From contig NZ_CACZDK010000036.1 in NCBI RefSeq assembly GCF_902779965.1, positions 1 to 57,667 of the forward strand: a stretch of 57,667 nucleotides of DNA, given 5' to 3'. How positions within the stretch are numbered: the stretch's first letter is position 1; each line of letters opens with the position of its first letter. The notes under the pieces are model-generated. The model saw nothing but the letters and a program-made list of their open reading frames with translations, did not search any database and was not told the origin of the DNA. Source of the stretch: Fibrobacter succinogenes (lineage in GTDB: Bacteria > Fibrobacterota > Fibrobacteria > Fibrobacterales > Fibrobacteraceae). A program made the position numbers and the translations under genes. Positions 12,182 to 16,078 of this stretch are shown piece after piece.

Positions 12182-13987
12182 ATGAATTATTTAAAAATTA
12201 GCGGACAGCTTGTCTGCAAAATGTTGGTGCTGCTTGCTTTTGCATTTGCGGCTTGTTCCGATAATCAGGTTTCGGGCGGTGTTACCGAAGAAACACGAGT
12301 TTATGCATTGTCTGGCCGAGTGGGCGATGTGTGTCCAAAACTGCTGAAGGTTGCGGATTCGTCGGGTGTGTACGTTGATACTGTAAAATATGAGGGCTCA
12401 GTGTTTGCCGAAAAAGGATCGATTATAACCGTTTATGAATTGGATTCTTTGACTCTCGATACGACAGGTCGTTTTTTTGTAGATACAGTGGATAACGATA
12501 GTGGCCACTTTGAGTTTAAAGAAATGAATCTAAGAAGCCCTTATGTATTAATTGGAGAGCAAGTTAGCTCTCCTGATGTCCGCGATAAACGAGGTACTAT
12601 AGTTTATACGTATTATAACTACAGTGCGATAGTAGATTTGCGGAATGTGAAAAACGTAAGTATTAGCACTTTGACGACGATGAAAGTTCCACTTTTACAA
12701 AAATATTTTGCAGAAGGAAATTCTTTTGCTCAAGCAAGTAAAATGGCTGAGCGTGAAATTCTTGAAGAGTTCGGCGTGTACGAGGATCTTGGTGCATTTG
12801 AAAAAATGAATGAGGATGGTTCAGAATTGCCTTATGTTAATACAATGGCTCGTTTAAGTGAATCAGATATACGCTCGGAATTGAACTTTGAAACCCAGCT
12901 CTATTATTCTTCGCCAAAGGCGTTTTCTAATCGAAAATCTGCTGTGGAACAATTTTATTTAAATTCCATGAAGATGATAAAGTATATGGTAAATTACTTG
13001 GCTAATAAAGATGGTTTAGGTCGATGTGATGAGGCGCATGAAAATGTTTCTGGGGATGTTGGAGCTGCTAATACAAGGCTTATTACTATCGTATGTCGTT
13101 CTGGAAGTTGGACTCTTGGATTTAAAACGGTTGCTCATACGAAAGGGACAATGACGGATGAGCGAGATGGAAAGATTTATAAGACGGTGACGTATAATTG
13201 GGGTGACGTTTCTCAGACTTGGATGGCTGAAAACCTGAGTTTCACGGATACGACGTCATCGTTGATTGACAGCGCGTTGAAATCGAATTTGTCAGGGAGA
13301 ATATCTTGTTTTTTGCCTGGGTATGGTTGGGAATGGTTTGAACAATATGAATCGGGTTGCGATCCGGATGATTATGTGTATCAGTGGAAAGCCGCTATGA
13401 ATATTGGCGATGGTGATGTGAATGTTTATTCCATCGATTCTTTGGGCGATACCACATTTGTTGACAAGGCGTATTTGGATTCTCTCGAGCATTCTTATGA
13501 TTGGACCTCGACCTATTTTGATTGGACCTGGAACTATGATGATTTTGTAATTTCCTCGAATAGGAACTCTTACCAGGGGGTTTGTCCGGATGGCTGGAGG
13601 ATTCCGACGGCTGCTGATTGGATGACCTTGCTGCAAAATTTGGGCAATGAATATGATGTTGATTATGAATACGTTGTTCCAACCCTATATGATGAAACGG
13701 CGACTGGCTTTGGATTGAATGCGCATGCTAAAGCTTGGTTTGATGAAACCTTGCAAATTGTTCGATTCCAATATAATGGTTTCTCTAATGCTTTTGTGAT
13801 AGTCGATAAGCCGTTGTATATCGCTGAATTCTTTGATCGGTGGAGTCCTCGTTGTGGCTTTGGAATTTATTCTTGTGGTGTTGTTGACCATACCTTTATT
13901 TTTGGGTATTGGAATTTGCACTTGATTGATGATGATTACCATAGGTCGACAACAAAAACCGCTTTTGTCCGTTGCATCAAAAACTAA
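12182..13987 (+). CDS. FISUMP-domain lipoprotein, module 4
   Basis: This 601-residue lipoprotein has the signal peptide MNYLKISGQLVCKM...AFAAC, nearly the same as module 1. The N-terminal domain has ITVYELDSLTLDTTG, DTVDNDSGHFEF and LRSPYVLI. The helical segment QKYFAEGNSFAQASKMAERE and the following YEDLGAFE resemble module 2 rather than module 1, so the protein looks mosaic. The FISUMP domain starts near residue 330 (DGKIYKTVTYNWGDVSQTWM), includes CPDGWRIPTAADWMTL, and ends FVRCIKN. Function is unknown. Confidence 0.88.
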   Translation: MNYLKISGQLVCKMLVLLAFAFAACSDNQVSGGVTEETRVYALSGRVGDVCPKLLKVADSSGVYVDTVKYEGSVFAEKGSIITVYELDSLTLDTTGRFFVDTVDNDSGHFEFKEMNLRSPYVLIGEQVSSPDVRDKRGTIVYTYYNYSAIVDLRNVKNVSISTLTTMKVPLLQKYFAEGNSFAQASKMAEREILEEFGVYEDLGAFEKMNEDGSELPYVNTMARLSESDIRSELNFETQLYYSSPKAFSNRKSAVEQFYLNSMKMIKYMVNYLANKDGLGRCDEAHENVSGDVGAANTRLITIVCRSGSWTLGFKTVAHTKGTMTDERDGKIYKTVTYNWGDVSQTWMAENLSFTDTTSSLIDSALKSNLSGRISCFLPGYGWEWFEQYESGCDPDDYVYQWKAAMNIGDGDVNVYSIDSLGDTTFVDKAYLDSLEHSYDWTSTYFDWTWNYDDFVISSNRNSYQGVCPDGWRIPTAADWMTLLQNLGNEYDVDYEYVVPTLYDETATGFGLNAHAKAWFDETLQIVRFQYNGFSNAFVIVDKPLYIAEFFDRWSPRCGFGIYSCGVVDHTFIFGYWNLHLIDDDYHRSTTKTAFVRCIKN

Positions 13988-14197: not shown

Positions 14198-14953
14198 ATG
14201 AAACCTGGGAAGACTGAACTCCGTTTGAATGCAGAAATCGAGAAACGTGGTGCGTTGTTTGCCGTGTTGTTGGATCCGGATACATCGGACGAAGCCGCCT
14301 TTGTAAAGGCTGGCTCACTCGCTGCTGAAAATGGAGCGGACCTTCTCTTGGTGGGTGGTTCTTACTTGGGCAATTTTACGCTCCCGAAGCAAGTGGCGGC
14401 GCTCAAGGCTGCCGTGGATTTGCCGGTGGTGCTTTTCCCGGGTGGGGCTTCTCAGGTTGTTCCCGGTTTTGATGCCATGCTTTTTATGACGCTTGTGAGC
14501 GGTCGCAATCCGAACTACCTCATCGACGAACAGGTTCGCGGTGGTGCACTCGTGCGCGCGCTCAACATGGAAGCTATTCCGACGGCATACCAGCTCATTA
14601 ACAGCGGTAAACGCACGACGGTCGAATACATCAGTGGCACGATGCCTGTGCCTGCAAACAAGCCCAAGCTCAGCATGGTGAACTCCATTGCTGCAGAACT
14701 CATGGGCATGCGTTATGTTTACCTCGAAGCCGGTAGCGGCGCCGAAGAACCAGTGCCGGTTGAACACGTTGCCTATACGCGCAAGGCCACCGAAATGACC
14801 ATCATCACCGGTGGTGGCATCAAGGATCCGCAGACTGCGGCCGTCCGCGTTGCTGCCGGTGCGCAAATCATCGTGACCGGAACTCTCTGGGAAAAGGTCA
14901 ACGATCCGGCGTTGCTTAAGGAATTCGCCGCCGCAATCCACGTGAAAGGCTAA
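14198..14953 (+). CDS. Geranylgeranylglyceryl phosphate synthase family protein
   Basis: This 251-residue protein resembles the PcrB/GGGPS family of TIM-barrel prenyltransferases, which join a polyprenyl diphosphate to glycerol-1-phosphate to form an ether lipid precursor (EC 2.5.1.41 for the archaeal enzyme). Visible motifs are LLDPDTSDE near the N-terminus, the LLVGGSYLG strand, YLEAGSGAEEPV in the middle and TGGGIKDP followed by IIVTGTLWE near the end, where phosphate is bound in this family. Length is typical. There is no signal peptide. It appears to be a single gene with its own upstream site (AAAAGGATTTGCT). Chain-length specificity cannot be told by eye, so the product could be a geranylgeranyl or other polyprenyl glyceryl phosphate. 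It is a bacterial member of a mainly archaeal pathway. Confidence 0.85.
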   Translation: MKPGKTELRLNAEIEKRGALFAVLLDPDTSDEAAFVKAGSLAAENGADLLLVGGSYLGNFTLPKQVAALKAAVDLPVVLFPGGASQVVPGFDAMLFMTLVSGRNPNYLIDEQVRGGALVRALNMEAIPTAYQLINSGKRTTVEYISGTMPVPANKPKLSMVNSIAAELMGMRYVYLEAGSGAEEPVPVEHVAYTRKATEMTIITGGGIKDPQTAAVRVAAGAQIIVTGTLWEKVNDPALLKEFAAAIHVKG

Positions 14954-15279
14954 AAAGCGTCGCCTGTGAGCAACGAGTGCCTCGTATTAACGAGGCTTGG
15001 TTGCGAGAGTGAGACGAAATTTTAATTGCGCCGAACGGTCTGTAAGTGTGTTGCAGCACTCCTCACGTACGTGAGTACGCTACGTCGTGCTGCGCCTGCT
15101 CTCGCTCGCTTTTACAAAGCGTCGCCTGTGAGCAATGAGTGCCTCGTATTAACGAGGCATGGTTGCGAGAGTGAGGCGAAATTTTAATTGCACTGAACGG
15201 TCTGTAAGTGCGTTGCAGCACTCCTCACGTACGTGAGTACGCTACGGTCGATAAGGCGCCTCGTCTTACTCGCTTTTAT
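14954..15279. repeat. 162-bp tandem duplication with conserved hairpins
   Basis: Two copies (14,954-15,115 and 15,116 to about 15,279) begin AAAGCGTCGCCTGTGAGCAA and end near CGCTTTTA. Each can fold into a long imperfect hairpin: TCGCCT, GCAAC and CCTCGT on one side, ACGAGG, GTTGC and AGRCGA on the other. Each also has a perfect CTCACGTACGTGAG palindrome. No open reading frame is conserved between copies. Confidence 0.85.
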
Positions 15280-15550
15280 AACCTTTCGATCAGTGTGATG
15301 GAGCGTGTCATCCTGAGCGGAGCGCATAGCGCGAAGTCGAAGGATCCAGTGACAATTTTATAGAATATCCCTAATCCATAATTTTAAATTATGAATCCGA
15401 TTGAAAGAAAGTATTAGTCAAAACGGCTAATTCCATCTACATTTGTGCCCGAAAAAAAGAGCTCTTGAAAAATTCATCGTAACGGTCGTCTCTGAAAATT
15501 CAGCAATTTTTAGAGACTCCCTAAAAAACAATCTTAAGGAGATTGAATAT
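15280..15550. repeat. GTCATCCTGAGC...GGATCC element and upstream region of the small FISUMP gene
   Basis: At 15,308-15,347 lies GTCATCCTGAGCGGAGCGCA, then TAGCGCGAAGTCGAAGGATCC, a palindromic element of a type common in bacterial intergenic DNA. The remainder is AT-rich. A ribosome binding site AAGGAG (15,536-15,541) serves the gene at 15,551. Confidence 0.7.
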
Positions 15551-16078
15551 ATGAAGTTCAAGTTCATTGGAATGGCGGCACTTATTATCGCTACGGCAGT
15601 ACTGTTTGCCGCTTGCGAAAAAGTGGAAAACTGCCACTATGATGAAGTTGCCAAGACGCTCAAGTGCCAAGGTCAAACTTATGCTACCGTCGAAACGGGT
15701 GGCCGTATCTGGATGGCCGAAAACGCAAACCTCGTGAATTTCGATTCCAGCTATTGCTATGGAAACAACCTCGACAATTGCAAAAAGTATGGCCGCCTTT
15801 ACGATTGGAAATCTGCAAATGATGCTTGCCCCACAGGTTGGGAACTCCCGAAACAGGCTGACTTTGAAAAAGCCGACTTGAAGTTGCTCAATATTAATAA
15901 GGATGGTTTCCGCTATTACGATGGAAAGTTCGCCGATGAAAATGTGAGCGCCAGTTTCTGGACTGCCGATGCTTTTGATGATTCCCGCGCGGTCATGGTT
16001 CGTATACAGGACAAAGTAACGTACGAACATTACAACAAGACCATCGCTGCTTCCGTCCGCTGCGTCAAGGTGAAGTAG
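15551..16078 (+). CDS. Small solo FISUMP-domain lipoprotein
   Basis: This 175-residue protein has a lipoprotein signal ending LFAAC (Cys22), followed almost at once by one complete minimal FISUMP domain: YATVETGGRIWMAENA, CYGNNLDNCKKYGRLYDW, CPTGWELPKQADF and the terminal SVRCVKVK. The start at 15,551 is chosen because AAGGAG sits 9 nt upstream and a good signal peptide follows; an in-frame upstream start would bury it. There is no TIGR02147 partner. It defines the core of the domain that is inserted or extended in the four module lipoproteins. Function is unknown. Confidence 0.9.
   Translation: MKFKFIGMAALIIATAVLFAACEKVENCHYDEVAKTLKCQGQTYATVETGGRIWMAENANLVNFDSSYCYGNNLDNCKKYGRLYDWKSANDACPTGWELPKQADFEKADLKLLNINKDGFRYYDGKFADENVSASFWTADAFDDSRAVMVRIQDKVTYEHYNKTIAASVRCVKVK

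Follow-up and report, generated by a model that had tools for sequence, protein, structure and literature searches.

A two-hairpin repeat family of Fibrobacter often found in register with stop codons, and its worn copies nested behind a PcrB-family gene

The tandem repeat that follows a PcrB-family gene in the window (the whole stretch of DNA analyzed here, 57,667 nucleotides of Fibrobacter succinogenes) holds two copies of a structured repeat, termed module A, and these copies are an atypical, decayed, and nested instance of a family that was apparently undescribed until now. Complete units outside the window are about 90-92 nt long, and their pairing is conserved through compensatory change among family members. 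We give roughly even chances to the reading that module A is a mosaic repeat of about 92 nt, resembling REP/BIME elements, which was dispersed in the form of folded single-stranded DNA and settled at stop codons because it is either aimed at them or harmless there. The structure would then be selected because the '+' strand is recognized as a folded single strand, as single-stranded DNA in mobilization or recombination. Insertions would be found, or would survive, directly at stop codons, where they would be tolerated because no gene is broken there, and the agent that moved them may be lost or yet to be named.

The repeat lies on the '+' strand at 14954-15277 as composite units of 162 and about 164 bp (TRF, repeat search, and alignment). 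The 162-bp tandem repeat described in an earlier note on this DNA is borne out both by TRF, which gives a period of 162 bp, 1.8 copies, and 95% matches for 14954-15246, and by alignment of the copies, which are 95% identical over 134 bp (14951-15084 versus 15113-15246) with diverged tails beyond that part (81% over 26 nt). Its lack of coding capacity also holds, in that ORF calling in the window gave no ORF of at least 60 aa spanning the repeat. The upstream gene (14198-14953, '+' strand) is of the PcrB family (Pfam PF01884, E 9.9e-39), it ends in a TAA stop codon (14951-14953) that directly adjoins the repeat at the side of a second component, module B, and a Fib_succ_major gene (15551-16078) begins about 270 nt past the repeat. 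ORFs with PF09603 (Fib_succ_major) in fact flank pcrB, at 12182-13987 and 15551-16078, the match of the former being just below the Pfam cut-off. A further dispersed repeat of Fibrobacter 3' UTRs (GTCATCCTGAGCG...GAAGTCGAAGGATC) is seen at 15310-15349 of the window and at L180, L184, and L189 after trpS.

A 44-nt hairpin pattern has two matches in the window and none in shuffles. According to the earlier note both copies fold into the same long hairpin; minimum-energy folds keep a central hairpin common to both copies, and the remaining fold is unlike. The note also saw paired changes between the copies, and this claim fails. Specifically, the segment TCGCCT is identical in both (14960-14965 and 15122-15127) and its partner reads AGACGA in copy 1 (15012-15017) and AGGCGA in copy 2 (15174-15179), which is a single one-sided substitution. 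Compensatory change between the two window copies was rejected because their differences are one-sided, and true compensatory change is visible only on comparing family members. The TCGCCT pairing itself is mostly peculiar to the window locus, since 13 of 239 related units have, within the 20 nt upstream, an exact 6-bp complement of the equivalent segment. The proposal of a structured RNA or mobile palindromic unit thus stands in so far as the hairpin belongs to a dispersed, structure-conserved Fibrobacter family, but not on the strength of paired changes, and the search of related genomes that was to count against it if there were no other copies did find them in Fibrobacter.

The 162-bp unit was rejected as a single element because modules A and B are found apart at other places. 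A DNA search of the window's own genome returned the window and three partial matches, one covering query positions 174-227 and two covering 97-161, and among these places both modules stand together in the window only. They again match apart in the search of 40 further genomes, and matches were present in 24 of 41 genomes, that is, in 24 of the 25 within the genus and none of the 16 outside it. Module B is a palindrome with AAACC-like and GGTTT-like ends and with an A-run and a T-run (AAAAGCG...CGCTTTT). All parts of the composite lie on the '+' strand. In copy 1, the left arm of module B (AAAGCGTCGCCT, 14954-14965) and its right part (CTCACGTACGTGAGTACGCTACG...CGCTTTT, 15041-15113, from DNA searches and the module B alignment) enclose a worn module A (14966-15042; R1 covariance model score 70.1 bits, E 7.6e-12 in its own genome) that measures 75 nt from GTGAGC to CGGTC, not about 90. 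It consists of hairpin P1 (GTGAGC...GCGAGAG, 14966-15009, supported by pattern, fold, and pairs conserved in the family) and a shortened second stem P2 with the CGAACGGTC core (15010-15040, by comparison with full-length units). In copy 2, the left arm (15116-15127, module B alignment) and a right part with a diverged tail that ends in CGCTTTT (15203-15277, repeat search and alignments) enclose a module A that is likewise worn to 75 nt between GTGAGC and CGGTC (15128-15204; 67.7 bits, E 2.5e-11), with P1 at 15128-15171 (pattern and fold). P2 is eroded in both copies. Once module A is excised, the remainder of the window copies can be aligned to module B from seven dispersed places. We infer from this that module A is nested in module B and that the composite was then duplicated in tandem; the decayed module A would have landed inside module B after pcrB. 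Module B palindromes also follow one gene, whose protein ends in MGDAIKG, in four genomes (L003, L014, L019, and L021).

The '+' strand of module A, which is the strand of the covariance model, folds into two back-to-back hairpins. P1 has the form GTGA-GC-NNN-AA-stem-TATTAA loop-stem-NNN-GC and runs into GCGAGAG, and P2 consists of GAGAGYGAG, variable complementary arms, and CGARCGGTC. When 21 units were aligned with MAFFT, with no fitting to the model, a double-sided change was present at 14 of 21 pairs against a shuffled mean of 5.1, and a control in which the partners are slid abolishes the signal. In an alignment of 95 distinct rows, double-sided change is seen at 18 of 21 pairs, and the cells that show it number 276, compared with 58.4 when shuffled; these counts are inflated since this alignment was fitted to the model. 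Among 210 units the Y-R pair is C-G in 114 and T-A in 74, and a tandem GA/GA mismatch is retained in 172. Some units carry insertions of their own. A palindromic insert (core AACAATAGAAACAAG..CTTGTTTCTGCTGT) splits the TATTAA loop at L015:1280-1449, L023:1465-1635, L098:2095-2264, L131:1879-1998, and L183, as well as in the trpS 3' UTR of the window's own genome, and seems to be another small element that favors the module A hairpin. An insert of another kind (CCTTTGGCGTCCGCGGC...) truncates or splits units at L115, L157, and L080. At L155, in the pta 3' UTR of genome G004, TTTTT follows a hairpin whose stem and loop are those of P1, and this looks like a unit turned into a real terminator or a terminator ancestral to P1.

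In the window's own genome the covariance model has 17 matches at E<=0.01 and 21 at E<=1, and it matches in 60 of 61 sampled Fibrobacter genomes with 0-69 places each (1405 in total, median 18), these per-genome counts being lower bounds with 70 candidates scored per genome. In a sample of 120 genomes of the phylum, 53 were positive, 48 from Fibrobacter and 5 from its sister genus, g10, so that 2 of 37 genera are represented; a direct search of six genomes of the sister genus gave 2-10 matches in five of them. The exact pattern returned 101 stretches from a collection of named genomes, all titled Fibrobacter or Fibrobacterales, and in the same exact form it was absent from viral contigs. The places lie mostly between genes and the copies are dispersed, either single or in head-to-tail arrays. 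Rfam had no family at the units of 20 loci, where it recognized only RNase P and a tRNA, and gave sub-threshold chance matches only in the window region. The literature searched, which left most subscription papers outside its coverage, contained no earlier description of such a Fibrobacter element, and a term search did not find Fibrobacter in the main text of PMC12306157 or PMC3733652. It should be noted that the units analyzed here are a non-random sample drawn from the best model hits and one exact pattern, that related genomes are non-independent, with duplicates dropped only if the unit and 40 nt on each side were identical, and that ORFs came from a simple purpose-made caller.

Many units stand in a precise relation to a neighboring gene. 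When the units at the 3' ends of arrays were compared with convergent ORFs of at least 100 codons, 95 of 199 had the stop codon -2 to +3 nt from the GGTC 3' end of the '+' strand; at the opposite end 3 of 119 did. A stricter version of the test gave 81 of 199 versus 2 of 123 at the other end, and another found 58 of the 72 units with a nearby ORF, out of 134 examined. In some units the stop codon even borrows the first bases of the element (TA-GACC, T-AACC). About half of the sampled end units lie away from any recognizable stop, several of them following terminators or RNA genes. In the sense of the gene, a terminator-like site occurs within 250 nt beyond the element in 55 of 78 cases (20 on the other strand, 3.4 in shuffles), and hence the strand opposite '+' should be the start of the 3' UTR of the abutting gene. 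On the 5' side of '+', the neighboring gene has no such fixed direction (40 in the same and 37 in the opposite orientation, 77 with a call among 78 examined). Eighteen of 20 abutting proteins scanned could be named, and all are conserved proteins of metabolism or translation: Pta, NuoN, rubrerythrin, malate dehydrogenase, TrpRS, glutamate dehydrogenase, EF-P, PurC, a GlmM-like protein, ArgJ, fructose-bisphosphate aldolase, a carboxyltransferase, a decarboxylase beta subunit, PflB, NadC, V-ATPase K, EF-G, and GlyA. Such metabolic and translation genes are generally highly expressed.

The choice between a DNA and an mRNA function turns on which strand folds. In 183 parsed units of 221 distinct ones, P1 pairs read on '+' include 102 G.T versus 12 A.C, or 23 versus 10 once the single richest pair is left out. 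Minimum-energy folds favor '+' in 91 of 120 units by a mean of -3.6 kcal/mol, and the internal loops are GA-rich on '+' and hence UC-rich in the mRNA of the abutting gene. Judging from this wobble asymmetry, the fold energies, and the GA-rich loops, selection more probably acts on the fold of the strand antisense to the abutting gene. The mRNA of that gene does not contain the '+' strand and the direction of the 5'-side gene is unbiased, which makes folded single-stranded DNA the simplest owner of the strand signal. The choice of our preferred reading over its main rival hinges on this step, which depends heavily on a single base pair.

At the 3' ends of pta and trpS (readable at 29 and 11 of 30 loci, respectively), close relatives carry a full unit, a lone core, or nothing, a mobility-like pattern. 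A GACCGYTCG core is often left beside the units; 31 of 236 units are preceded by a full unit, 82 by a lone GGTC core, and 123 by neither. Genomes have the same P1 but a different P2 at gdhA and at polA (a locus named by eye), so the units are mosaics in which P1 and P2 have separate histories at a locus. The identity of P2 is 0.653 within a genome (562 pairs), 0.693 at the same gene (187 pairs), and 0.606 for other pairs (1462), from which it follows that likeness within a genome and likeness at a gene both exist and neither is dominant. In all, more than one genome has a unit at 22 of the 45 host-gene clusters, and mdh carries one in 10 Fibrobacter genomes as well as in G122, which belongs to the sister genus. 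In these locus comparisons, genomes were matched across collections by the lengths of contigs and by position. Such long-term occupation of mdh fits selection for a cis function as well as re-insertion.

The enzymes that might mobilize module A were sought in the same genomes. Y1_Tnp/RAYT (PF01797) is present in 20 of 61 genomes and absent from the window's own genome, copy numbers are similar with and without it (medians 19 and 17, p 0.57), and a unit lies near one of five Y1 loci. The integron integrase (TIGR02249) is above its cut-off in none of the 61 genomes, TnpB (PF07282) was found in none of 10 element-bearing genomes, and a reverse transcriptase was found in 2 of 10. RAYT, integron integrase, reverse transcriptase, and TnpB were rejected as mobilizers, none being consistently present in the genomes searched (61 for the first two, 10 for the others). 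Recombinases below the IntI cut-off, which we take to be Xer-like, occur in 61 of 61 genomes. In the window's own genome (G000:C17), two tandem units (L069:1407-1590) lie directly after an Xer-type recombinase gene (124307-125092).

The REP/BIME repeats of E. coli and Pseudomonas (GTAG and CGTC families) are among the closest known systems. Like them, module A comprises dispersed imperfect palindromes in many extragenic copies, single or clustered, that lie just past stop codons, are mosaic, and have other small elements inserted in them. According to PMC3733652, REPs of the GTAG type are single hairpins of 20-40 bp with a 5' GTAG or CGTC tag, whereas module A has about 92 nt, two hairpins, and the 5' tag GTGA (GTGAGC). 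It also has a fixed orientation, a spacing of -2 to +3 nt to the stop codon, and tandem GA pairs, and it has no linked RAYT gene; tag, size, and RAYT linkage thus set it apart from a typical REP. MITE-type elements are likewise small and non-coding, with presence or absence among relatives and nested insertions, but no terminal inverted repeats or clear target duplication were found for module A, and its orientation is tied to stop codons. IS200/IS605 derivatives (PATE, TnpB guide RNA) go with a Y1 TnpA or TnpB partner, which the counts of TnpB and PF01797 above do not bear out for module A.

The main rival to the REP/BIME-like reading is a role in the 3' UTR of the mRNA, in which hairpins at the stop codon slow terminating ribosomes or block 3'-5' decay, so that the element would be kept at highly used genes and spread by recombination. 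We regard this as possible and the less probable of the two. It would account for the precise stop-codon spacing, for the terminators beyond the element in gene sense, for the company of conserved genes such as pta, mdh, gdhA, efp, EF-G, pflB, fba, and glyA, and for long retention, with multi-genome occupation that extends to the sister genus. It also has a precedent, since PMC12306157 reports that E. coli REPs no more than 15 nt from a stop codon stall ribosomes, and 95 of 199 end units of module A lie at -2 to +3 nt. However, in gene sense the wobble runs the wrong way, with 12 G.U versus 102 A.C, the conserved tandem GA/GA becomes tandem UC/UC, copy number ranges from 0 to 69 among congeners, and the element is absent at pta and trpS in close relatives. 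The wobble statistics, which place the folded strand antisense to the gene, would suit a '+' strand expressed in its own right, as a structured small RNA running antisense to the end of the neighboring gene, as would the purine-rich internal loops, which are typical of structured RNA. The lack of a preferred orientation of the 5'-side gene and of any Rfam match, for the window region or the units at 20 loci, makes such an RNA improbable in our estimation, and no promoter belonging to the units was noticed.

Two further explanations we consider more improbable still. attC sites follow a stop codon, keep the pairing of a variable stem, fold on the strand antisense to the gene, and occur in arrays, and their core boxes are defined as RYYYAAC and GTTRRRY. 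Module A shares the post-stop position, the variable paired stem, the antisense folding, and the arrays, in which a core is repeated between units and lone cores occur, and the Xer-like recombinases of all 61 genomes could supply a tyrosine recombinase acting on the folded bottom strand. An attC-like site is nevertheless very hard to reconcile with 0 of 61 genomes having IntI above cut-off and with neighbors that are housekeeping genes at shared loci and not mobile cassettes. The core sequence also seems different from that of attC, in that inspection of the consensus by eye showed no such boxes. That the repeats are ordinary intrinsic terminators duplicated locally, with no special element, is just as implausible: such terminators have a GC hairpin followed by a conserved U tract, module B does end in an A-run and a T-run, and a loose terminator scan accepts P1 in 55 of 78 cases when it is read in gene sense versus 1 of 78 on '+', but the NNN bases that form the T-rich tail of P1 vary freely (AAC, CCG, CAT, and others), full units are followed by separate terminators, and P2 and the core have no terminator role. 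Going beyond the REP/BIME-like reading, module A could be a new class of mobile element, an antisense folded single-stranded DNA aimed at stop codons that re-occupies central-metabolism genes across two genera and has its variable stem swapped by a recombinase, possibly of the Xer type, but we think this unlikely.

Most of what is known about short repeats behind stop codons comes from enterobacteria and pseudomonads, and in those groups they are usually attributed to a dedicated transposase. The interest lies in the module A family as a whole, the window copies being worn and ordinary. A deep-branching lineage of the rumen and gut has its own larger and better-structured repeat, which keeps register with the stop codons of central genes and lacks the usual transposase, and the family accounts for a recurrent sequence of Fibrobacter genomes and MAGs that has no Rfam name. 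Its many copies and species, with both occupied and empty sites, form a natural experiment on whether such repeats are tolerated parasites or working parts of 3' UTRs, and on how they spread.
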